Source of the DNA: a virus
Strand: one strand, 5' to 3'
DNA: 30,038 nucleotides
Virus record (IMG/VR): IMGVR_UViG_3300031873_001025
Location: 1-30,038 of that record
This document shows, piece by piece, positions 1,439 through 30,038 of this stretch. Both the position numbers and the translations under genes were made by a program. The stretch's first letter is position 1. Each line of letters starts with the position of its first letter. The notes under the pieces were generated by a model, which saw only the letters and a list, made by a program, of their open reading frames with translations, had not been told where the DNA came from and searched no databases.

Positions 1439-3490
1439 TCACTTTATTTCACACGCCTCTCCCTCACAGAACTTATCCGGTTCCACTTCATGCTTCGCCC
1501 CAGATAAATCTAAGGGCAGAAGAGAAGCAGAGTACTGTTCATGTTCCTCCTTTGTGCAAGGGATATATGGCGCTTGTTCATAGAGATGTTCTCTATGCGG
1601 AAGAAAAGCAACGGACTTCCATTGATTCGCGTAAAGTTCAAGCACCTTTACGACATCTTTCGCTTCAGCATCATTAAAAACCAACGTATTAGAAACAGCG
1701 TTGTCGGACCAATATCGTTGCAACGCCGTAAGTAAAGCAGCCTGTTCCCAGAGGGAAACGTCTGAGATTGTTCTCATTCCTTGGTTACTTGCGGGAAAAT
1801 AAACTACCGCAGTCATTGGTGTAGTGAGATCTTTTTCAACTCGGTAGTTGGCTTTTCTACAAGCAGAAACGATGTAACTGTTCTCCTCCATACGTATCGT
1901 ACGATAACCAAAGAGGAAGTTCGGTATCCTCATTCCCCCTTCTACACCAATAAGAAGCGGTACGGTTCCACCGGGCTTAACCGTTGTTCTTCGTATGGAT
2001 TCTCCCACACCCAACCAGTGAGAATACGTCCTATCCCACTTATGTATTTCTGCGTATCCCGCTTTCCACCAACGAATACATTCCTGCATCCCACGGTTCT
2101 CGTAGAACTGCCAGATGCCCATTAGGGATGTCCCAATGCGTCGATTTCGAGTCATCACGGAATTAGTTTGAGGACGATGAGTGGGAATAAGAGTAACACC
2201 CTTGGCATACTGGTAAGCCACCTTACATGTGACTAAGAAATCTTCTAAAGATTCGTGTGCGTTGGGATTGATTTCAACCAAACAACAAAGCTCTCCGTCC
2301 TCTAGCGGTTGCTCCCCGCAGGGGTTTAGACCCATAACAAATCGGTCTTTATCATCGTGCGGATCACACCGCCGACCTCTGGATTTTATATTATCTAGAA
2401 AGACGTAGTTCGGTTCCCCGTTCTTCACCGTTTGCGCGGCATACTTGGAGAAATCTCTTATCTCTGATGCTTCAATGGAGAGATTCGCTGCCCAACGGTG
2501 AGAAATAAGGGGATGCTCATTAATTTGTTTCTGTATCGTTTCCTTTTCCTCAGGAGACACTGTTTGAAGAAACTTTTCTTTTAACTCTTCTAATTGCGTT
2601 GGATCCTTCAGCCGAAGGAATTCATCATCGTCTGGAGATCCAAGGATCATTTCACTAGAGCGACGTATGTTTCCTGCGACAACACATTTTCCGATATAGT
2701 TCATTAAATCAACAATATCTGTTGAAGTAATAGGATCACCGATACGATCATCTAAAAGAGTTCTTATGCTACCAATTAACTCAAGAAGAGGCTGTGGTCC
2801 ACTAGCTGTTCCCCCAAAAGTCTTCAGAGGAATTCCCCTTGGACGAACTTGAGAAACATCTATTTCTGATGGCAGAACTCCTTTACGGGCGTACGCATCA
2901 AGCACTCGTCTTACTACCGCACACCATCCCTCACGGGAATCTTTTACGACGTGCGGCCCACCCATACGGGGTTTTCGAATGATGACTTTTCCTGCTCCTC
3001 GTGTATCGGAACCCACTCCAACTCCGAGCATGAGAAAGTCCATCATCGTAACAAACGGCTCTGCGAAATCGCGATCAATTGACTGTGTACTTATGAACCC
3101 GCAGTTCTGCAAAGAGGTTCCCCCGCGAAGTTCTAATGCCCTAGTCCCCATGAACCAGAGTCCTCGTCCTGGGGGAATCCACTTAAAAACCCAGAGCCTC
3201 TGAAACATATCCTGGGCCTTCTCCTGGGCTTCTTCCTCATCCCAGGGGTTGTGGGCACTGGTCACATATTGTTTGAAGATGGCCCATATTCCTTCAACAA
3301 CTCTCTGTGCCGTTTCCCAGAATTCTTCCGTTGTCCCGTCTTCTTTTTCTCGGGCATATGTTCTCTTGTACGTTACCAGTCCTTGAGGCCCAAACTTGGG
3401 TTGTTTCCCCCGAAAAGCAGCAAGAAAGAGAGGATTCAAGTGGAAGCGGTTTTCTTCTTTAATTTCAAAAACAGGTCTATCGTTTTCCAT
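1439..3490 (-). CDS. nrdJ: Adenosylcobalamin-dependent (class II) ribonucleoside-triphosphate reductase
   Basis: This enzyme reduces ribonucleotides to deoxyribonucleotides for phage DNA synthesis, using coenzyme B12 for radical generation. The 683-residue product is close to the monomeric RTPR of Lactobacillus leichmannii (739). Catalytic residues line up: Cys130 (in SLQNCGF), Cys391 and Glu393 in NPCGEQ, and Cys402 exactly 11 residues after Cys391, as in C408/C419 of the reference enzyme. The C-terminal reducing pair is CEGEAC (Cys675, Cys680), with the same spacing as C731/C736. No glycyl-radical motif and no class I small subunit is seen. The ATG at 3490 is preferred over a TTG at 3508 because AGGAGA sits just before it; that site overlaps the TAG of the upstream RuvC-like gene, so the two are probably translationally coupled. 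The single-chain layout lets the phage make dNTPs aerobically or anaerobically if B12 is available. Confidence 0.95.
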   Translation of the reverse strand: MENDRPVFEIKEENRFHLNPLFLAAFRGKQPKFGPQGLVTYKRTYAREKEDGTTEEFWETAQRVVEGIWAIFKQYVTSAHNPWDEEEAQEKAQDMFQRLWVFKWIPPGRGLWFMGTRALELRGGTSLQNCGFISTQSIDRDFAEPFVTMMDFLMLGVGVGSDTRGAGKVIIRKPRMGGPHVVKDSREGWCAVVRRVLDAYARKGVLPSEIDVSQVRPRGIPLKTFGGTASGPQPLLELIGSIRTLLDDRIGDPITSTDIVDLMNYIGKCVVAGNIRRSSEMILGSPDDDEFLRLKDPTQLEELKEKFLQTVSPEEKETIQKQINEHPLISHRWAANLSIEASEIRDFSKYAAQTVKNGEPNYVFLDNIKSRGRRCDPHDDKDRFVMGLNPCGEQPLEDGELCCLVEINPNAHESLEDFLVTCKVAYQYAKGVTLIPTHRPQTNSVMTRNRRIGTSLMGIWQFYENRGMQECIRWWKAGYAEIHKWDRTYSHWLGVGESIRRTTVKPGGTVPLLIGVEGGMRIPNFLFGYRTIRMEENSYIVSACRKANYRVEKDLTTPMTAVVYFPASNQGMRTISDVSLWEQAALLTALQRYWSDNAVSNTLVFNDAEAKDVVKVLELYANQWKSVAFLPHREHLYEQAPYIPCTKEEHEQYSASLLPLDLSGAKHEVEPDKFCEGEACEIK

Positions 3491-3497
3491 ATTTCTC

Positions 3498-4058
3498 CTA
3501 CACGTCAACAGTTTTTCTTCTGGATTTTACTTTCACTTTTGGTTTAAAAAGTTCATACACCGCTTCAGCTTCACAGCGGCGTTGATAGATTCCTTTTGTT
3601 TTTGCCCATGCGAACTTGGCAAGTCCAAATGCATCGGCTGAATTGTCCGCACCCTTGAAATCGATCTCCCATACGTCCTTTACGCTGTAAAGAACCATTT
3701 CTTTGTCGGCATGGCCGTTTCCAGTGATAAACTTCTTCAAACTCATTGGAGGAACAACCATTAAATCCTTTCCCGTTTCGTCAAATACGTAAAGACGAAG
3801 AACACTAAAGATCCCTCCTAGATCAAAAGAACGGTGCGTGCTCTCCACGCTATACCCTTCAATTGCCCCCGCTTGAATGTGCTCTGGATGATCTCCGATG
3901 AAGTCCCTCAGCCCATCTCTGATGAACGCCTCCCGCTGTACCCCCCGCTGGTCTCGGGTTACACTTAGCGTCATCGACTGAACATACTCCCCCGTCTCGT
4001 TTACCAGTGCGAACCCTGAGCTGTTGAGCGACTGATCGATCCCTAGGAAAAGGTCCAT
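3498..4058 (-). CDS. RuvC-like Holliday junction resolvase
   Basis: The 186-residue protein has the RuvC/RNase H-like fold signature. The acidic residues are Asp8 (FLGIDQSL), Glu67 (AIEGYS), and Asp138 and Asp142 (DNSADAFGLAKFA). Between them lies the typical ITGNGHADKEMV segment seen in bacterial RuvC. It would cut four-way junctions formed during replication and recombination, and in phages also helps resolve branched DNA before packaging. The C-terminus is a basic tail (KPKVKVKSRRK). The start is fixed: an in-frame TGA lies two codons upstream, and the GIDQS motif follows at once. There is no clear Shine-Dalgarno. Its ATG overlaps the ATG of the divergent + strand gene within one CATG, so its promoter must lie inside that gene. 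It is the first gene of a two-gene unit with the reductase. Confidence 0.88.
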   Translation of the reverse strand: MDLFLGIDQSLNSSGFALVNETGEYVQSMTLSVTRDQRGVQREAFIRDGLRDFIGDHPEHIQAGAIEGYSVESTHRSFDLGGIFSVLRLYVFDETGKDLMVVPPMSLKKFITGNGHADKEMVLYSVKDVWEIDFKGADNSADAFGLAKFAWAKTKGIYQRRCEAEAVYELFKPKVKVKSRRKTVDV

Positions 4059-19170: not shown

Positions 19171-19199
19171 TTAATACCTCAAAACAAAGAGGTTGTAAA
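19171..19199 (-). promoter_or_regulatory. Candidate sigma-70-type promoter for the - strand replication unit
   Basis: On the - strand TTTACA (19199-19194) is followed after 17 bases by TATTAA (19176-19171). Transcription would start near 19165, about 37 bases ahead of the GTG at 19127. The -35 overlaps the first base of the sigma start codon. This is the best host-type promoter I see ahead of the 9.5-kb replication unit. Confidence 0.42.
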
Positions 19200-20017
19200 T
19201 GACTATCAACACACATGACGATCGTGTAGCCTCCGACTACTATCAAGAAGTTGGACTATACCCAATTCCAACTCCCGATGAAGAAAAAAGATTATTCGCT
19301 TTATATAGAGACGCTCCTTGTTCAAAAGAGAAAGCGAAAATAAAACAACGAATAGCCTGTGGGTACCTCAAGTTTGTTATCCGTCACGCCCACCGAAAAA
19401 CAAAAGACCCTGATTTACGACAAGAACTTATCGCAGAAGGTAACATTGGACTGATGGTGGCTATCGATAAATTCGATCTCGCCAGGGGAACACGTTTCTT
19501 AACGTATGGTGCTTCGTGGATTGATGTGTACATGAGAGAGTTCATCAACCGAGCACCAGGAGTGCATATCCCCAATCATCGCAGAAAAGATCTCAGAAAA
19601 CAAAAAACCAACGAAGATAAGTTAATGGCTCTGGGGATAATATCGGAATACACCACTGTTGAACCTATTGTTACTTCTTACGATACGTCTCTTCTCCCAG
19701 CGTCCGATAGTCCTGAGACATCAGCACAAGAGATAGAATTGAACATGCTCTCTTATTTAGCTGCCTCAGGACTATCGTGCCGAGAACGTTTTATTTTGAT
19801 TCACTACTATGGACTTCGCGGAGGAGAGACGCAAAACTTCCGCGCTTTAGCTAGACTCCTCTATCTCATTGACGGTACGCTCCTATCGAGTGAGTGTATC
19901 CGTCAACTGAAAGAGAAGAGTCTCAATCAGATCAAAGACTATCTTTCTTCAGAAGGGGTAGAAGCGAACGGACTTCCTAAGGATTGGGTGATTACAGCAA
20001 CACACCAACTGGTTTAG
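19199..20017 (+). CDS. Sigma-70-family RNA polymerase sigma factor
   Basis: The 272-residue protein has the main regions of a sigma-70 family factor. Region 1.2-like sequence is at 11-33 (ASDYYQEVGLYPIPTPDEEK). Region 2 spans about 47-118, with core-binding 2.2 (DLRQELIAEGNIGLMVAI, then DKFD) and the -10 recognition part GTRFLTYGASWIDVYMREFI. Region 3.0-like sequence is GVHIPNHRRKDLRK. A C-terminal region 4 (about 188-250) starts LSCRERFILIHYYGL and contains a helix-turn-helix. The acidic region 1.1 of primary sigmas is absent. AGAGG, six bases before the ATG, is the ribosome site. It is a lone + strand gene between two - strand units, and overlaps the convergent ParB-like gene by four bases. 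Together with the RNA polymerase subunit at 27212 it suggests phage-directed transcription; it may alternatively steer host polymerase. Confidence 0.9.
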   Translation: MTINTHDDRVASDYYQEVGLYPIPTPDEEKRLFALYRDAPCSKEKAKIKQRIACGYLKFVIRHAHRKTKDPDLRQELIAEGNIGLMVAIDKFDLARGTRFLTYGASWIDVYMREFINRAPGVHIPNHRRKDLRKQKTNEDKLMALGIISEYTTVEPIVTSYDTSLLPASDSPETSAQEIELNMLSYLAASGLSCRERFILIHYYGLRGGETQNFRALARLLYLIDGTLLSSECIRQLKEKSLNQIKDYLSSEGVEANGLPKDWVITATHQLV

Positions 20018-22327: not shown

Positions 22328-22752
22328 TATATCTCATCCGACATGTCTGACGGATCCTTTCCTATTTCGCCAAAGTCTTTAAATATCCTGGTCGGTATTC
22401 TCGCGCTATCTTTTCCTAATTTTGGCCCTTCTTGAGTTAGTCTTTGACTTTCTGAGCTTAACGCGGCCATTTCTTTTGCTGTCTTCTGTGCGTCCTCTTC
22501 TTCATCTAGATTTACAACCCGGCTTCTTGTACTCCTTGTCACTGAAGACAAAGAAACCGTTTTTGCCCCCACCTTTGGTGCTACAGTAACACCGGAGACT
22601 TCTACCAGAAACATTGGGCCATTTTCAGTATCGATCATGGAAAAAACAATACTTTCCTCCAAATCTTCAGGAGGAGTAAGCCCCTGAGCCTTAAGATGAG
22701 TACTTATAATCTCTCGAAGTTCTTCTTCAGTAATTCCCACATTGAGTTTCAT
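22327..22752 (-). CDS. Small acidic protein, unrecognised (141 aa)
   Basis: No family is recognised. Residues 1-60 look folded (ITEEELREIISTHLKAQG, then a beta segment ending MFLVEVSGVTV), and residues 65-141 are polar and probably disordered, rich in Ser, Thr and acidic residues with a DEEED cluster. There are no cysteines. Its ATG overlaps the SNF2 stop by ATGA, and its stop overlaps the nuclease start by TAATG, so it is translated together with both. It could be an accessory subunit linking the ATPase and the nuclease, but nothing in the sequence shows this directly. Confidence 0.72.
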   Translation of the reverse strand: MKLNVGITEEELREIISTHLKAQGLTPPEDLEESIVFSMIDTENGPMFLVEVSGVTVAPKVGAKTVSLSSVTRSTRSRVVNLDEEEDAQKTAKEMAALSSESQRLTQEGPKLGKDSARIPTRIFKDFGEIGKDPSDMSDEI

Positions 22753-24752
22753 AGTTCTTCCGCCTTTGCAATGGGCCGCGAGACCTCGGATTGGTACTTA
22801 CACCCTTTATGAAAGGGGTGTATTTGTTGTTTCGCACATCTTTCTTGATCAGAACAAACCGAACAAGTAATTTTTTCTGAAAGCGTATATGCAATCTTTG
22901 ATTTAAACTGAAGAAGTGCTGCTAAGAAAACAGCGAGAGTTCCTTTAGCAAGAAGGCGATAGACAGTGACGGGTCTATCCTGTCCTGGACGATGATTCCG
23001 GTCCTTTGATTGGTCATATTGAAGACGGTCCCATGGGAGAGAATAGTAAATTACGTAGTTTGCTGCCGTAAGATTTATCCCAATTCCAGAAGCAACCTCT
23101 CCTACACATACCCGAACATCTGGATCTTTTTGAAACTTTTCTTGAAGTTTCTTTATATTTCGCGAACTCTTTCCATCAATCCGTATGTGTTTCCACCCAC
23201 GGCGTTTACAAACTTCTTCCATGTCATCCAGTTCAGGAAGAAAACATCCCCAACAGATGATTTTATTCGTATCATCACTAGTAAGAATGTTTTCAATAAG
23301 TCCTTCAAAGATATCGAGTTTTACGTTTTCCATGTCTCTGATTATTTGATCTGGAGGGGCCTCCTTTGCGCGATCACACCCCGGGGTAAATGGTCTTGTG
23401 TGTGAAGCGACACACTCAGAGATGTAGGCGCACCCGTTACAGATTGAATAGTCTTTTCCTTTAATGACAAATCCCGAAGTGAGTTGAAGAAGTTTAGTTA
23501 CTCGGGCCGCACCATGCGGAAGAAGTGCAAACTTAGGAAGATCATCTTCCGTAAAAGAGATTTGCATCTCACGGACAATTTCATTGTATCGTTCAACTTG
23601 TCTTGATCCTAAATCAAAAAGAATATCAGAAATTGTCACTGGAGGAAGATCAAGACAATCCAATTTTTTCATTCGAGAAGCAATACGATCTACTTTGTCA
23701 TTTATCTTATCCATGTGCCTATAACCAATGACTCTGTGTTTTGATCCTGGAGCCACTGTTACGTGACTTTTCCAAAAGGTCTCATAGTTCATCGGCATCA
23801 GCCCAGGTGCTAGAAAGAACAGTTGAGAAAAGTATTTAAGTGGTTGGTCCCCTGCGGTTCCCGTAAGAGCGTATCGTCTTGCGGCTCCCGCTGAAAGAGT
23901 CACGGTTGCTTGAGTTTGGTCGCTGCGCCAATTGCCAAGATAGTGACTCTCATCAGCAACAATAATATCATAATCAAGTATCTCTAGTGGATTCTTCGCA
24001 AGAGGAATAAGCCGTTTTTCATCGTAATCTGGTACATTAATCTTCTTAAGAAGTACCTTTACTTCTTCACTGGTTAACTTCTTAAAATTGAGAAGGAGTT
24101 TTCGTACTGCGGCGGCTCTTGTATTCGCTAATCCTGCACGGGTATAGCTTACAAACACTACATCCGTCTGGGGAAGTTCTCCCCCACTCCACTGAGAAAA
24201 CGACAATTCTCCTTGAGCATGAAACTGAATCTCTTGCTCCCAAGTAGACGAAACAATCGGAGGAGCAACCACTAAGGCTCTCGTAAACTCCCCTATTTTT
24301 TTAAGAATACGGAAAGTCTCAATCATTACTTTTGTTTTTCCTGTCCCCATTTCCCATAGAAAAAACTCTCTCCAGTTAAGAAATGCGAGAGAAATTCCTA
24401 ACTCTTGATGATGAAAGGGGGGTACATGAAACTGGAAACCAGCAGGAAGCCAACTGAGAGGAGATTTTCCGTTTTTCCAACAATCCAGAATATCAATTAT
24501 TGATGTTGCTTTCCGATAAAGTTTCTCTCGCTGCTCTTGTGCTTTTTCATCATATTCGAGTTGTGAATAGATCACCTTAAGGTCACTTACGCTCCACATT
24601 CCAAACGGAAAATATGCAGGAAAAGCCCAATCACCATTCGGAAGACGCTTTGCTCCCCACACACGCTGCCAAGGCTCATCGTCTTTTACCGAAAGAACAA
24701 AGACAGGAGTACGCTTCAGCCATGTCAAAGTTAATTTCGGAAGCTTTGTCAT
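22749..24752 (-). CDS. SNF2-type superfamily 2 ATPase with two Cys4 modules
   Basis: A double-stranded DNA translocase or remodeller of 667 residues. RecA-like lobe 1 has Walker A MGTGKT (135-140), DESH (267-270) and motif III ALTGTA (295-300). Lobe 2 has motif V-like VASGIGINLTAANYV and motif VI QSKDRNHRPGQ (581-591), which places it with SNF2/RapA-like enzymes. A Cys4 insert at 438, 441, 447 and 459 lies between the lobes, and a second with identical spacing lies near the C-terminus at 630, 633, 639 and 651. AAGGA precedes the ATG. The gene is divergent from the portal-like gene with 31 bases between them and leads the unit of acidic protein, nuclease, zinc ribbon, small protein and ParB. 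Phage relatives are often recombination or replication-fork helicases. Confidence 0.9.
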   Translation of the reverse strand: MTKLPKLTLTWLKRTPVFVLSVKDDEPWQRVWGAKRLPNGDWAFPAYFPFGMWSVSDLKVIYSQLEYDEKAQEQREKLYRKATSIIDILDCWKNGKSPLSWLPAGFQFHVPPFHHQELGISLAFLNWREFFLWEMGTGKTKVMIETFRILKKIGEFTRALVVAPPIVSSTWEQEIQFHAQGELSFSQWSGGELPQTDVVFVSYTRAGLANTRAAAVRKLLLNFKKLTSEEVKVLLKKINVPDYDEKRLIPLAKNPLEILDYDIIVADESHYLGNWRSDQTQATVTLSAGAARRYALTGTAGDQPLKYFSQLFFLAPGLMPMNYETFWKSHVTVAPGSKHRVIGYRHMDKINDKVDRIASRMKKLDCLDLPPVTISDILFDLGSRQVERYNEIVREMQISFTEDDLPKFALLPHGAARVTKLLQLTSGFVIKGKDYSICNGCAYISECVASHTRPFTPGCDRAKEAPPDQIIRDMENVKLDIFEGLIENILTSDDTNKIICWGCFLPELDDMEEVCKRRGWKHIRIDGKSSRNIKKLQEKFQKDPDVRVCVGEVASGIGINLTAANYVIYYSLPWDRLQYDQSKDRNHRPGQDRPVTVYRLLAKGTLAVFLAALLQFKSKIAYTLSEKITCSVCSDQERCAKQQIHPFHKGCKYQSEVSRPIAKAEEL

Positions 24753-26544: not shown

Positions 26545-27048
26545 ATGGCAAAAAACAACAAAGATGCCTCCTTCGTTGAAGCTCTTCGTGATGAATTAGA
26601 GCCTCAAGAAGAAATAAGGGCTTTTGAAACTCCCTTTTTTCCTCCAACGGAGTTTCCTGAACCGCTGCCAATAAATAGTTTTAAATCCCCTGCGGACAAG
26701 ATCCTTCATCCTCACGCAGCGCTTCCACTGCGTAGAAAATCCACCTTTCACTACGACGTCTTCACAGTTCACCGTGTAAACTGTTCGTCGTGCCGAGCGC
26801 TATTCAAAGCGATGATCCAAAAAGAAGGCAGTGAAGGCCCATACCAGATTCCTCCCTGCTCCCATAACGATCGAGAAGCCTACGTGACCCTGGTCAACCG
26901 GGGACTCCGCGAGGAGGTCACCTTCGCAACCTTCCGAGAAGAAACCCTCAAGGACGGCTCTGTGCAGATCTGTGTGGGCTGGGCTGAGTTCGAAAAAATA
27001 CCGGAACCGCCTCCGACCCCTGATGGATCGGAGGCAGCCCCAGCCTGA
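26545..27048 (+). CDS. Protein of unknown function with CxxC...CxH motif (167 aa)
   Basis: No named family is recognised. The N-terminal 60 residues are acidic and Pro-rich (ETPFFPPTEFPEPLPIN) and probably disordered. The centre has CSSC and, about 20 residues later, CSH (in IPPCSHND), a possible metal site. The C-terminus is Pro/Glu-rich. The gene starts three bases after the portal-like stop, with GGGA eight bases before the ATG, so it is co-expressed and possibly a head component. The last 170 bases are noticeably GC-rich. Confidence 0.7.
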   Translation: MAKNNKDASFVEALRDELEPQEEIRAFETPFFPPTEFPEPLPINSFKSPADKILHPHAALPLRRKSTFHYDVFTVHRVNCSSCRALFKAMIQKEGSEGPYQIPPCSHNDREAYVTLVNRGLREEVTFATFREETLKDGSVQICVGWAEFEKIPEPPPTPDGSEAAPA

Positions 27049-27211
27049 CTCCCTATCTGCTCGCCGCTTTGGCGATGAAAACCAATAGGGAGAGGAGCGA
27101 ACGGATAACCATTCCCCATCTCCTAGTTAGGGGAACTCTTTAGAGCCCTGAGTACAAGGCTCTTATCTAGTGCTTGTACCACGTTCCAAGTGTTATTCTT
27201 GAGGGACTCCA
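27049..27211 (+). other. Structured 163-nt leader ahead of RNA polymerase beta
   Basis: The gap contains several stems. CTCCCTAT (27049-27056) pairs with ATAGGGAG (27085-27092), enclosing TCGCC/GGCGA (27061-27065 with 27071-27075). TTCCCC pairs with GGGGAA (27112-27117 with 27130-27135). AGAGCC pairs with GGCTCT (27142-27147 with 27158-27163). The loop of this last stem holds GTACAA (27152-27157), complementary to TTGTAC (27174-27179), giving either a competing hairpin or an H-type pseudoknot. GAGGG before the ATG at 27212 is the ribosome site. No tRNA cloverleaf or clear sigma-70 promoter was found. It looks like a 5' leader or 3'/5' junction that controls the downstream gene, but the structures are drawn by eye only. 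Confidence 0.5.
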
Positions 27212-30038
27212 ATGGCTGACGCCCCTGTCTTGACCCCCATCCTCATTGATGCTCCCGCTCTACGTGATCGGATACATGCTCGTGTCATAAATGAGATGCA
27301 TTCCATCTTTCCAGTGGACTTAAAAACAAGAACACTGGAAGTAAAGGACGTTGCCGTTCATCAAAAAGACTTCGGTCCAGAGGAACAAAAAAGAGCACTG
27401 ATGACGGGGGCTTCCCTGAATGAAACCATAAAAGGGACGCTTGTTCTTAAAGATAAGGCGACAGGAAATGTAATAGACGAAGCCAAAAACTTCATTTTAA
27501 CTCACATTCCCTACTTTACAGAAAGACACACAGTTATTTCCAATGGGAATGAGTATCAGATCGCTAACATGCTCCGTAGACGTCCTGGAGTTTATACACA
27601 AAGGGCTGGAAATGGTGAACTTCATACCTCATTCAACCTCTCCCGAGGAGCAAACTTCGATCTTTCTCTCCATCCCGAGAAAGGAACTCTTCATATCTCC
27701 TATGACAGCACCAACCTGCCCCTCTACTCCGTGTTACGAGCTCTGGGTACATCCCACGAAGAAATTGCAAATCATATCGGAAGTGATGTCGCCAATCTCA
27801 ACGCTACTCACTTTTCCAAAAAGATAGAACCAACGATTTCAAAGATTTATGCAAAAGTTATCCATCCATCGAAGCAACTTCCTGGCGCTTCACACGAAAC
27901 AAAACTGAGTGCTGTAAAAGAGCATTTTGCCAATACCGCGATGGATCCCCATGTAACAAATCTTACTTTAGGACAGCCTTTTGATAAAGTAACTCCTAAA
28001 GTACTTATGCTCGCTGCAAAGAAACTCCTGGATGTTCACACAGGAAAAAAAGAAGTTGATGACTCCGACAGTCTTGCCTTCAAAACCTTTCATTCGGTAG
28101 ATGACTTTCTCGCAGAACGCCTTCGTCTTACCGCACGAACCTGGGCGCAAAAAGCTCGATACGCTTTGCACGGTAAAGACTCAATCCGAGAATCTCTTCG
28201 TCCCGCTCCGTTTTCGGATTCTATTGAGAGATTTGTTACTACCTCGCCGTTAACTGCAATTCCAATGGGAATAAATCCCATTGATCTTCTTGATCATGCT
28301 GTAAAAGTCACTTCTCTCGGTGAGGGGGGAATCCCTTCAGAGAGAGCCATTCCTGAGGATGCCCGGCTCACACATGCGACTCACTACGGAACGCTAGACG
28401 GTATCCGTACTCCAGAAAGTTTCCATGCTGGGGTGGACGTTCGGGCATCAATTGTTGCCCATAGAGATAACCAAGGAAACCTCTATACGCCACTTCTTAA
28501 CGTAAAAACGGGCAAACGAGAATTTGTTAAGTCAGGAGATCTTACGCAGCATGTGGTTGCTTTTCCCTATCAAGAAATGAAGGGAGAAGTAGACGCATTG
28601 GTGAACGGAAAAATAACTAGAGTCCCGCATACCAGCGTAGCTTATCAAGTTCCTCACGAAGCCTACACCCTCTCGCCTTCCACTTCGCTCGTACCGTTTT
28701 TACGGAATATGCAGGGAAACAGGGCGATCATGGGAGCAAAGATGCAAACGCAAAGCCTTCCCTTGCTTCAACGGGAGGCTCCTTTAGTTCAAGTTGTCTC
28801 ACACATCCCAGGAAAAACGTTCGAAGAACTCTACGGACACATGGTCGTACCCACTTCTCCAATACACGGAACTGTGGAGAAGATTGATGAAAATTTCATC
28901 TACATTAAGCCCCGCACAGAAAAAAAAGCTGAAGAACTTGAGAAAGATGCTGGAGACAAAGACCTTGTCCGAGTCCCATACCAGACCAACTTTCCTTTCC
29001 CTTCTAAAACGGCTCTGCACCATACCCTCAGCGTGCATCCGGGCGATAAGGTCACTGCTGGACAAGCACTAGGAGACTCCAACTACACCCGAGACGGCAT
29101 ACTTTCCTTAGGAAAGAATCTCACGGTCGCATATGTCCCGTATTACGGTTTGAACTCCAATGACGCGGTGGTTATTTCCGAAGGTGCCGCACAAAAACTC
29201 ACCAGTGAGCATATGTATCGTGAGGTTCTTCCCATCACTCCCCTCATCGAACTTTCACAAAATAAACACCACACCTTCTTTGGCGCAAAGTACCAACCCG
29301 CGCAGTATGCTCATCTTGATGAGAACGGAATCGTAAAGAAGGGGGCCAAAGTCAACCCTCACGACCTTCTTGTTTCAGGGGTAACTAAGACTCAACTTTC
29401 TGGAACAGACCTTATCCTTGGAAGAATATCAAAGAGTCTTACTAAACCTTTCCGAGAAATTGTTCTCACTTGGGAACATACGGTACCAGGAGAAATCATT
29501 GAGGTTGTTCGTTCAGATCGACAAGTAGCAATCCTCATAAAGACTCAAGAGTCTATGCAAATTGGCGACAAACTATCCGGCCGACATGGCAACAAGGGTG
29601 TTGTTGCTAGAATTATCCCTGATCATGAAATGCTTCAAGATGCCAAAGGAAAACCAGTTGATGCCCTATTCACCTCTGCTGGCGTCGTAAGCAGAATAAA
29701 CCCTTCTCAGATTATTGAAACGGCTGTTGCAAAAGTTGCCGCAAAAATTGGAAAATCCATCAACTACGATCCTTCTCATACGGGGGACACAGTTGAGTGG
29801 GTAAAGGGACTGATGAAAAAACACGGGGTTGAAGAGAAAGAACATCTTTACGATCCAGTGAAACAACGAACGATCTCAGGGCACGATGGAAAAGGGGTTT
29901 TTGTTGGACCCCAGTATATCTTCAAGCTCTTTAAGAGCACTGATACCAACTTCTCCGGGCACGCTGTAGGCCCCCATGATTTGAACGAACAGCCTGTCCG
30001 CCAAGGTGGAGAGAAAGGGGCAAAGGCTTACGGAAAGA
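27212..30038 (+). CDS. Multisubunit-type DNA-directed RNA polymerase beta subunit (5' part, runs off window)
   Basis: The frame starts at ATG 27212, with GAGGG upstream, and stays open to the right edge (942 codons). It is a homologue of cellular RpoB. NGNEYQIANMLRRRPGVY (about 111-128) matches the N-terminal RpoB lobe. SPLTAIPMGINPIDLLDHAV and KVTSLGEGGI (about 346-374) match the fork/Rif region, followed by HATHYGTLDGIRTPES (388-403). RAIMGAKMQTQSLPLLQ starts at 504. GKNLTVAYVPYYG is at 634, then NDAVVISE. GDKLSGRHGNKGV (785-797) holds the two catalytic-site lysines, Lys787 and Lys795 (K1065/K1073 in E. coli). The window ends in the QPVRQGGEKGAKAYGK segment, just before the expected GEME region. 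It would catalyse transcription with a beta' partner not seen here. It is compact, lacking the large lineage-specific inserts of E. coli beta. Confidence 0.94.
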   Translation, partial: MADAPVLTPILIDAPALRDRIHARVINEMHSIFPVDLKTRTLEVKDVAVHQKDFGPEEQKRALMTGASLNETIKGTLVLKDKATGNVIDEAKNFILTHIPYFTERHTVISNGNEYQIANMLRRRPGVYTQRAGNGELHTSFNLSRGANFDLSLHPEKGTLHISYDSTNLPLYSVLRALGTSHEEIANHIGSDVANLNATHFSKKIEPTISKIYAKVIHPSKQLPGASHETKLSAVKEHFANTAMDPHVTNLTLGQPFDKVTPKVLMLAAKKLLDVHTGKKEVDDSDSLAFKTFHSVDDFLAERLRLTARTWAQKARYALHGKDSIRESLRPAPFSDSIERFVTTSPLTAIPMGINPIDLLDHAVKVTSLGEGGIPSERAIPEDARLTHATHYGTLDGIRTPESFHAGVDVRASIVAHRDNQGNLYTPLLNVKTGKREFVKSGDLTQHVVAFPYQEMKGEVDALVNGKITRVPHTSVAYQVPHEAYTLSPSTSLVPFLRNMQGNRAIMGAKMQTQSLPLLQREAPLVQVVSHIPGKTFEELYGHMVVPTSPIHGTVEKIDENFIYIKPRTEKKAEELEKDAGDKDLVRVPYQTNFPFPSKTALHHTLSVHPGDKVTAGQALGDSNYTRDGILSLGKNLTVAYVPYYGLNSNDAVVISEGAAQKLTSEHMYREVLPITPLIELSQNKHHTFFGAKYQPAQYAHLDENGIVKKGAKVNPHDLLVSGVTKTQLSGTDLILGRISKSLTKPFREIVLTWEHTVPGEIIEVVRSDRQVAILIKTQESMQIGDKLSGRHGNKGVVARIIPDHEMLQDAKGKPVDALFTSAGVVSRINPSQIIETAVAKVAAKIGKSINYDPSHTGDTVEWVKGLMKKHGVEEKEHLYDPVKQRTISGHDGKGVFVGPQYIFKLFKSTDTNFSGHAVGPHDLNEQPVRQGGEKGAKAYGK

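Follow-up and report, generated by a model that had tools for sequence, protein, structure and literature searches.

Does a phage RNA polymerase (RNAP) start transcription with a bacterial-style sigma factor encoded by the same phage? The question is raised by the stretch of DNA analysed here (the window), a complete IMG/VR record of 30,038 bases that ends inside an RNA polymerase beta gene. The gene for a 272-residue, sigma-70-family initiation factor (sigma A; ATG start, 19199..20017, plus strand) is located 7.2 kb upstream of the 5' part of the polymerase gene (27212..30038, plus strand; Pfam Rpb2_6, E 3e-44), which is truncated by the contig end. The pair spans 10.8 kb, in agreement with an earlier note on this DNA that had placed a sigma-70-family protein within 11 kb of RNA polymerase beta. 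The interval between them carries a ParB-like gene, nuclease and SNF2-helicase genes and, by comparison with Salmonella phage Arash, a gene at the portal position. The SNF2-type helicase gene occupies 22749..24752 (minus strand), and in Arash and Vibrio phage D69, too, a helicase gene separates the sigma gene from the RNAP gene. A B12-dependent (class II) ribonucleotide reductase is encoded at 1439-3508 on the minus strand of the window; Arash possesses class Ia genes instead.

Sigma A possesses regions 1.2, 2, 3.0 and 4

Sigma A of the window matched Pfam Sigma70_r2 (E 3e-10) and, over residues 22-262 with region 4 included, PHROG 351 (sigma factor; E 5.7e-27), and its best solved relatives were RpoS proteins (E 3e-15). 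Pfam region 4 was below significance in the window protein alone; among 25 orthologues, region 2 was matched in all, Sigma70_r4 in 17 and region 1.2 in 10. In the AlphaFold2 model of the window protein (pLDDT 84), a sigma1.2/sigma2 domain is followed by the region-3.0 helix at residues 126-144; a disordered linker (145-171) then leads to sigma4, built of four helices (172-251), and there is no separate region-3.1 domain. This model aligned with both sigmaS and sigma70 over the full length, the sigma2 part with an rmsd of 2.0 A over 114 residues. The Pfam matches of the orthologues, together with the PHROG and AlphaFold2 results for the window protein, place a region 4 helix-turn-helix in the sigma A family. 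In region 2, Y430 and W434 are invariant and W433 is tryptophan in 18 of 26 proteins; these proteins have the region 2 of the sigma-70 family, with its predicted core-binding (2.2) and melting (2.3-2.4) segments. Regions 2, 3.0 and 4, which the earlier note had read from the sequence, were all recovered by these searches and the model, and region 1.2 can be added. A zinc-ribbon-like CxxC...CxxC insert lies between regions 1.2 and 2.1 in sigma A of four loci (L056:2-874, L061:211-1251, L075:177-1208 and L077:124-1173), while the phage beta' is without the cellular N-terminal zinc domain.

The polymerase gene encodes a beta-beta' fusion

The label "beta" given to the polymerase gene turned out to be right in part. 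In the relatives the gene encodes a fusion of beta with the N-terminal, active-site part of beta' (beta-beta'N), and the remaining beta' (Rpb1 domain 5) is encoded by a separate ORF of ~605 residues. A plain beta subunit was rejected as a motif search put the beta' DYDGD active site in the same ORF; the coiled coil, RAPxLH and the N(L/A)DYDGD active site are all found in one ORF of the relatives. The catalytic DxDGD aspartates (D460, D462 and D464) are present in all 27 aligned relatives, and the window contig stops before them. Full-length fusions are 1450-1530 aa long in simple architectures and longer where insertions occur. Among cultured phages, Arash (OQ632216) and Vibrio phages D69, D181 and D148 encode a full-length fusion (34% identity) and, like the window lineage, a separate C-terminal part of beta'. 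Compared with the E. coli enzyme, the phage fusion lacks the zinc domain at the N-terminus of beta'. The alpha subunit (RNA_pol_L) was absent from 13 records, the control being positive in 13 of 14 genomes, and other phage multisubunit RNAPs likewise lack alpha (PMC7824862).

Several of the fused genes are interrupted or enlarged. A PF18823 inorganic pyrophosphatase-like domain resides inside beta at L004:11675-12397 and L087:9995-15970 (E 3e-6 and 2e-5), LAGLIDADG-like insertions, possibly inteins, are found in the fused beta of L065:10001-15589 and L077:10004-15418, and the fusion gene of Vibrio phage D181 (OZ196140 143889-149770; L150) is broken by a homing endonuclease gene.

Sigma genes accompany the polymerase across the lineage

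An IMG/VR scan using the window sigma alone gave no match, and relatives were collected through beta, not sigma. In 23 of the 29 loci with 10 kb of upstream sequence, sigma A was found ~8-9.5 kb upstream of beta on the same strand, and this pairing in position, strand and presence holds down to ~30% identity. The sigma A-RNAP distance is similar in Arash (same strand, with the portal gene directly before RNAP) and D69 (opposite strand). As the position is conserved across many relatives, chance proximity of the two genes is ruled out. Many phages without RNAP carry sigma genes, and sigma A could in principle be an unrelated cargo gene that came to lie near RNAP by accident; the conservation of the locus has largely refuted this idea, the lineage-specific promoters described below also oppose it, and we regard it as very improbable. 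Sigma A and beta distances are correlated (r 0.84 over 19 phages; 0 of 2000 permutations), which fits long shared inheritance, as any two vertically inherited genes would.

Among contigs of at least 100 kb, 13 of 15 encode sigma A and all 15 encode a second sigma-like protein, sigma B. The latter belongs to the family of Arash gp10 (Pfam region 3, E 9e-9; region 2 weak), and its gene lies near a cell-wall hydrolase gene wherever checked. Sigma A was undetected in two contigs, G023 (138 kb) and G034 (102 kb), both of which carry the RNAP fusion and sigma B; either the core works without sigma A there, or the contigs are incomplete. Both sigmas were confirmed in Arash, D69 and D181, in D181 along with the broken fusion gene, and neither was found in the more distant RNAP phages Carin-5, YerA41, Va2 and RHph_Y65. 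The sigma/RNAP pairing is real, conserved and unusual: a phage sigma accompanies RNAP lineage-wide, beyond the single pair described in the earlier note, and there are two sigmas per genome.

Sigma B and the core detected in Arash virion preparations

In published mass spectrometry of Arash virions, gp206, the fused beta, was the most detected protein at 128 unique peptides; 40 were assigned to the beta' C-terminal part gp216 and 24 to sigma B gp10, and sigma A (gp196) is absent from the table (PMC10585845). The preparation also contained many proteins unlikely to be structural, and its authors named carry-over as an alternative (PMC10585845), so that packaging of the core and sigma B in Arash virions is likely rather than proven. 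The authors described the core and one sigma in virions; the paired system, sigma A and the promoters are undiscussed (PMC10585845).

That sigma A went undetected in Arash virions counts against the phage core as its partner and suits an alternative, in which sigma A redirects the host core to phage promoters, as T4 gp55 and SPO1 gp28 do, and the phage core works only with the virion sigma B. Most known phage sigmas do act on the host core (PMC7598289), and the two RNAP contigs without sigma A can be read in the same way. Nevertheless, sigma A accompanies RNAP in this lineage, while the four other RNAP phages named above have no sigma, which speaks against the host core as its partner.

Two promoter classes on opposite strands

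We found two distinct promoter motifs, one on each strand. The Arash genome carries GGTATAAG on the strand opposite RNAP: 24 of 31 copies are intergenic (3 expected), and 29 of 30 promoter-placed copies are on that strand. The D69 counterpart is TGtTATAAGtAA. In both phages TATAAG is preceded, at a spacing of 16-17 bp, by the -35 element TCAATA (log-likelihood ratio 57 and 60; shuffles at most 35), and the opposite-strand class is accordingly bipartite (-35/GGTATAAG). When GGTATAAG from Arash was taken as a fixed hypothesis to six IMG/VR relatives, 20 of 33 copies were intergenic (3.1 expected), and the motif ranked second among all 8-mers for intergenic placement in these six genomes. The contig G003, whose beta is nearest to that of the window, has CTGAAA as the -35, 17 bp and TATAAG (n=7; 31 versus at most 21 in shuffles), and G037 carries the variant GGTAAAAG. 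Motif discovery de novo in G016, G021 and G007 yielded weak signals, intermingled with terminator T-runs. On the RNAP strand of Arash and D69 we found a different, A/T-rich -10-like motif, TAAAATA. The earlier note had looked to plus-strand transcription units for a shared promoter motif; such a motif exists in the relatives and is strongest on the strand opposite RNAP, the RNAP strand carrying the second, different -10 motif. Three Arash genes (at 109282, 137660 and 139441) have back-to-back divergent promoters, with CTTATACC on the opposite strand followed directly by TAAAATA on the RNAP strand.

Phage-encoded sigmas of the T4 gp55 and SPO1 types have a private -10 element, TATAAATA in the case of T4 late promoters, and differ from the present system in acting on the host core with no phage RNAP. 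Neither TATAAATA nor TATAAT was accepted as the shared promoter: in Arash and D69 the enrichment of both falls short of that of TATAAG. The same -10 motif recurs across genomes of differing GC and, where known, differing hosts, a further point against the host core as the partner of sigma A, to be read with the reservation that a phage sigma on the host core would predict likewise.

The region upstream of beta carries elements of both strands. CTTnTACC, the opposite-strand element, was found upstream of beta in 30 of 37 non-redundant loci (0.34 expected), and at many of the 37 the start codon is additionally flanked by CTAAAATT, GTATACT or CTATACTT as a second element. We rejected CTTnTACC as the -35 of a beta promoter, as its spacing to the -10 ranges from ~11 to ~31 nt between groups; given this variable spacing and a reverse complement equal to the GGTATAAG-class element, an opposite-strand promoter is the better reading. 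In the window, the conservation among relatives marks GGTACAAG (GGTAnAAG; 27173..27180, minus strand), which appears as CTTGTACC upstream of beta, as a candidate -10 of the opposite-strand class. A candidate -10 of the RNAP-strand class, GTTATTCTT (27192..27200, plus strand), adjoins the beta start; it is weak alone and was placed via three relatives (L057, L087 and L089). GGTATAAG itself is absent from the intergenic regions of the window, where the sole fitting sequence is the GGTACAAG variant upstream of beta, and just downstream of GGTACAAG there is no convincing minus-strand gene, only an unconfirmed 79-aa ORF (26880-27119).

Host-type promoters were also found. TTGACA-N17-TATAAT occurs in 12 regions of Arash (3.5 in shuffles, maximum 6), and such promoters are not enriched in D69. 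About 10 host-type sigma70 promoters are located on the Arash non-RNAP strand, for instance at 100389-100604 and 119716-120402. These promoters suggest that the host RNAP is probably still involved in Arash transcription, and a "self-contained" transcription system, fully independent of the host, is at most a possibility. They weigh against the phage core, and for the host core, as the partner of sigma A.

Docking surfaces of sigma A and the phage core

If sigma A works on the phage core, the surfaces on which it docks should be there. Both major sigma-docking elements, the beta' coiled coil and the beta flap tip, are kept in the phage core, the flap-tip segment being retained in the alignment to E. 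coli. The coiled coil, in modelling run without the Arash and D69 rows, forms two antiparallel helices (149-170 and 173-191) and matched bacterial beta' in Foldseek; the window sequence excludes its own coiled coil. An alignment of 27 fused proteins with E. coli beta' showed no variation at four coiled-coil positions (D264, N266, L268 and Y269); E295 is not conserved, and R275, the best known sigma70-binding residue, is arginine in none. On the sigma side, E407 of region 2.2 is alanine in 23 of 26 proteins and replaced in 24, while N409 is asparagine in 22. Sequence changes on both sides of the interface (R275 and E407) would be expected of a private sigma-core pair, and fit one without proving it.

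The window sigma A retains the bacterial E407, as well as N409, which again counts against the phage core as its partner and would suit redirection of the host core; the replacement of E407 in 24 of 26 sigma A proteins opposes the latter. On balance we judge redirection of the host core by sigma A to be unlikely, though the strongest of the alternatives. A third possibility is that sigma A serves both cores, first the host's and then the phage's, in a hand-over. Arash does have host-type and phage-type promoters side by side, and from end to end the sigma A fold is similar to those of sigma70 and sigmaS. Nevertheless, with R275 of beta' never conserved in the phage, one sigma surface would need to fit two unlike docking sites, and we hold such a hand-over to be improbable.

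Comparison with other phage transcription systems

The earlier note had contrasted this system with phiKZ polymerases working without a sigma, which is half right: the non-virion RNAPs of phiKZ and AR9 use gp68 and gp226, structural relatives of sigma (PMC9209446). As in the present lineage, phiKZ and AR9 have multisubunit RNAPs without alpha, and their non-virion enzyme needs a sigma-like subunit (PMC9209446). Their virion RNAP enters with the DNA; in the present lineage, a virion RNAP is published for Arash only (PMC10585845). The two systems differ in that beta and beta' are each split in phiKZ and AR9 and sequence comparison detects no similarity between their sigma-like subunits and sigma (PMC9209446), whereas the present lineage encodes an ordinary, sequence-recognisable sigma-70 relative.

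The mReC phages (Weinheimer and Aylward 2020, PMC7481178) are tailed and, like the present lineage, have beta and beta' near enough to the cellular subunits for standard profiles; sigma, promoters and a beta-beta' fusion of their own are unmentioned in the main text (PMC7481178). Their capsids match PF07068, whereas the Arash capsid matches PF05065 weakly and phrog_2522, not PF07068; the window contains no capsid gene. The mReC criterion is PF03237 as the best terminase match, and the window terminase matched PF05876 best (5e-14), with PF03237 at 0.001, which speaks against counting this lineage among the mReC phages. According to reviews, jumbo phages encoding RNAP have no recognisable sigma, and those encoding sigma have no RNAP (PMC7824862, PMC13282480). 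Within the open-licence literature searched, the combination of an ordinary, recognisable sigma with a phage core is new; the reviews treat the two as alternatives (PMC7824862, PMC13282480).

A model for transcription in this lineage

These phages probably bring their own polymerase with its own sigma specificity. The best explanation as a whole, to which we assign a probability of about 0.65, is that the window is one piece of the genome of a large tailed phage, whose lineage has a bacterial-style transcription system in which sigma A and sigma B give the phage core its promoter specificity. The core consists of the fused beta-beta'N and the separate beta' C-terminal part, with no alpha, and would owe its promoter specificity to two phage sigma factors. 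Sigma B, encoded among tail/lysis genes and detected alongside the core in Arash virions, would be delivered into the cell along with the phage DNA and initiate early or middle transcription, and sigma A would be made during infection. Docked by region 2.2 to the coiled coil of the phage beta' and by region 4 to the beta flap, sigma A would guide this core to one of the two promoter classes specific to the phage. The numbers of sigmas and promoter classes, as far as the genomes tell, match. We infer the binding of sigma A to the phage core and the assignment of sigmas to motifs; the phage holoenzyme with a bacterial-style sigma envisaged in the earlier note gains from the lineage-wide pairing, the docking elements and the shared promoter motif, and stays inferential at this contact.

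It is attractive to speculate further that the virion packages a complete holoenzyme (beta-beta'N, beta' C-terminal part and sigma B) and injects it, and that sigma A later swaps onto the same core and thereby switches between the two strand-specific promoter classes. We put this forward tentatively, with somewhat less than even odds. If true, it would amount to a bacterial-style sigma cascade carried wholly by a virus.

A lineage with both RNAP and sigma crosses the division of large phages drawn in the reviews (PMC7824862, PMC13282480), and the cultured phage Arash makes the idea of a sigma on the phage core directly testable. The sigma mechanism may persist on a viral core stripped of alpha and of the zinc domain of beta'. 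The system is also relevant to the age of the sigma-core partnership and to the building of an orthogonal bacterial-type polymerase.
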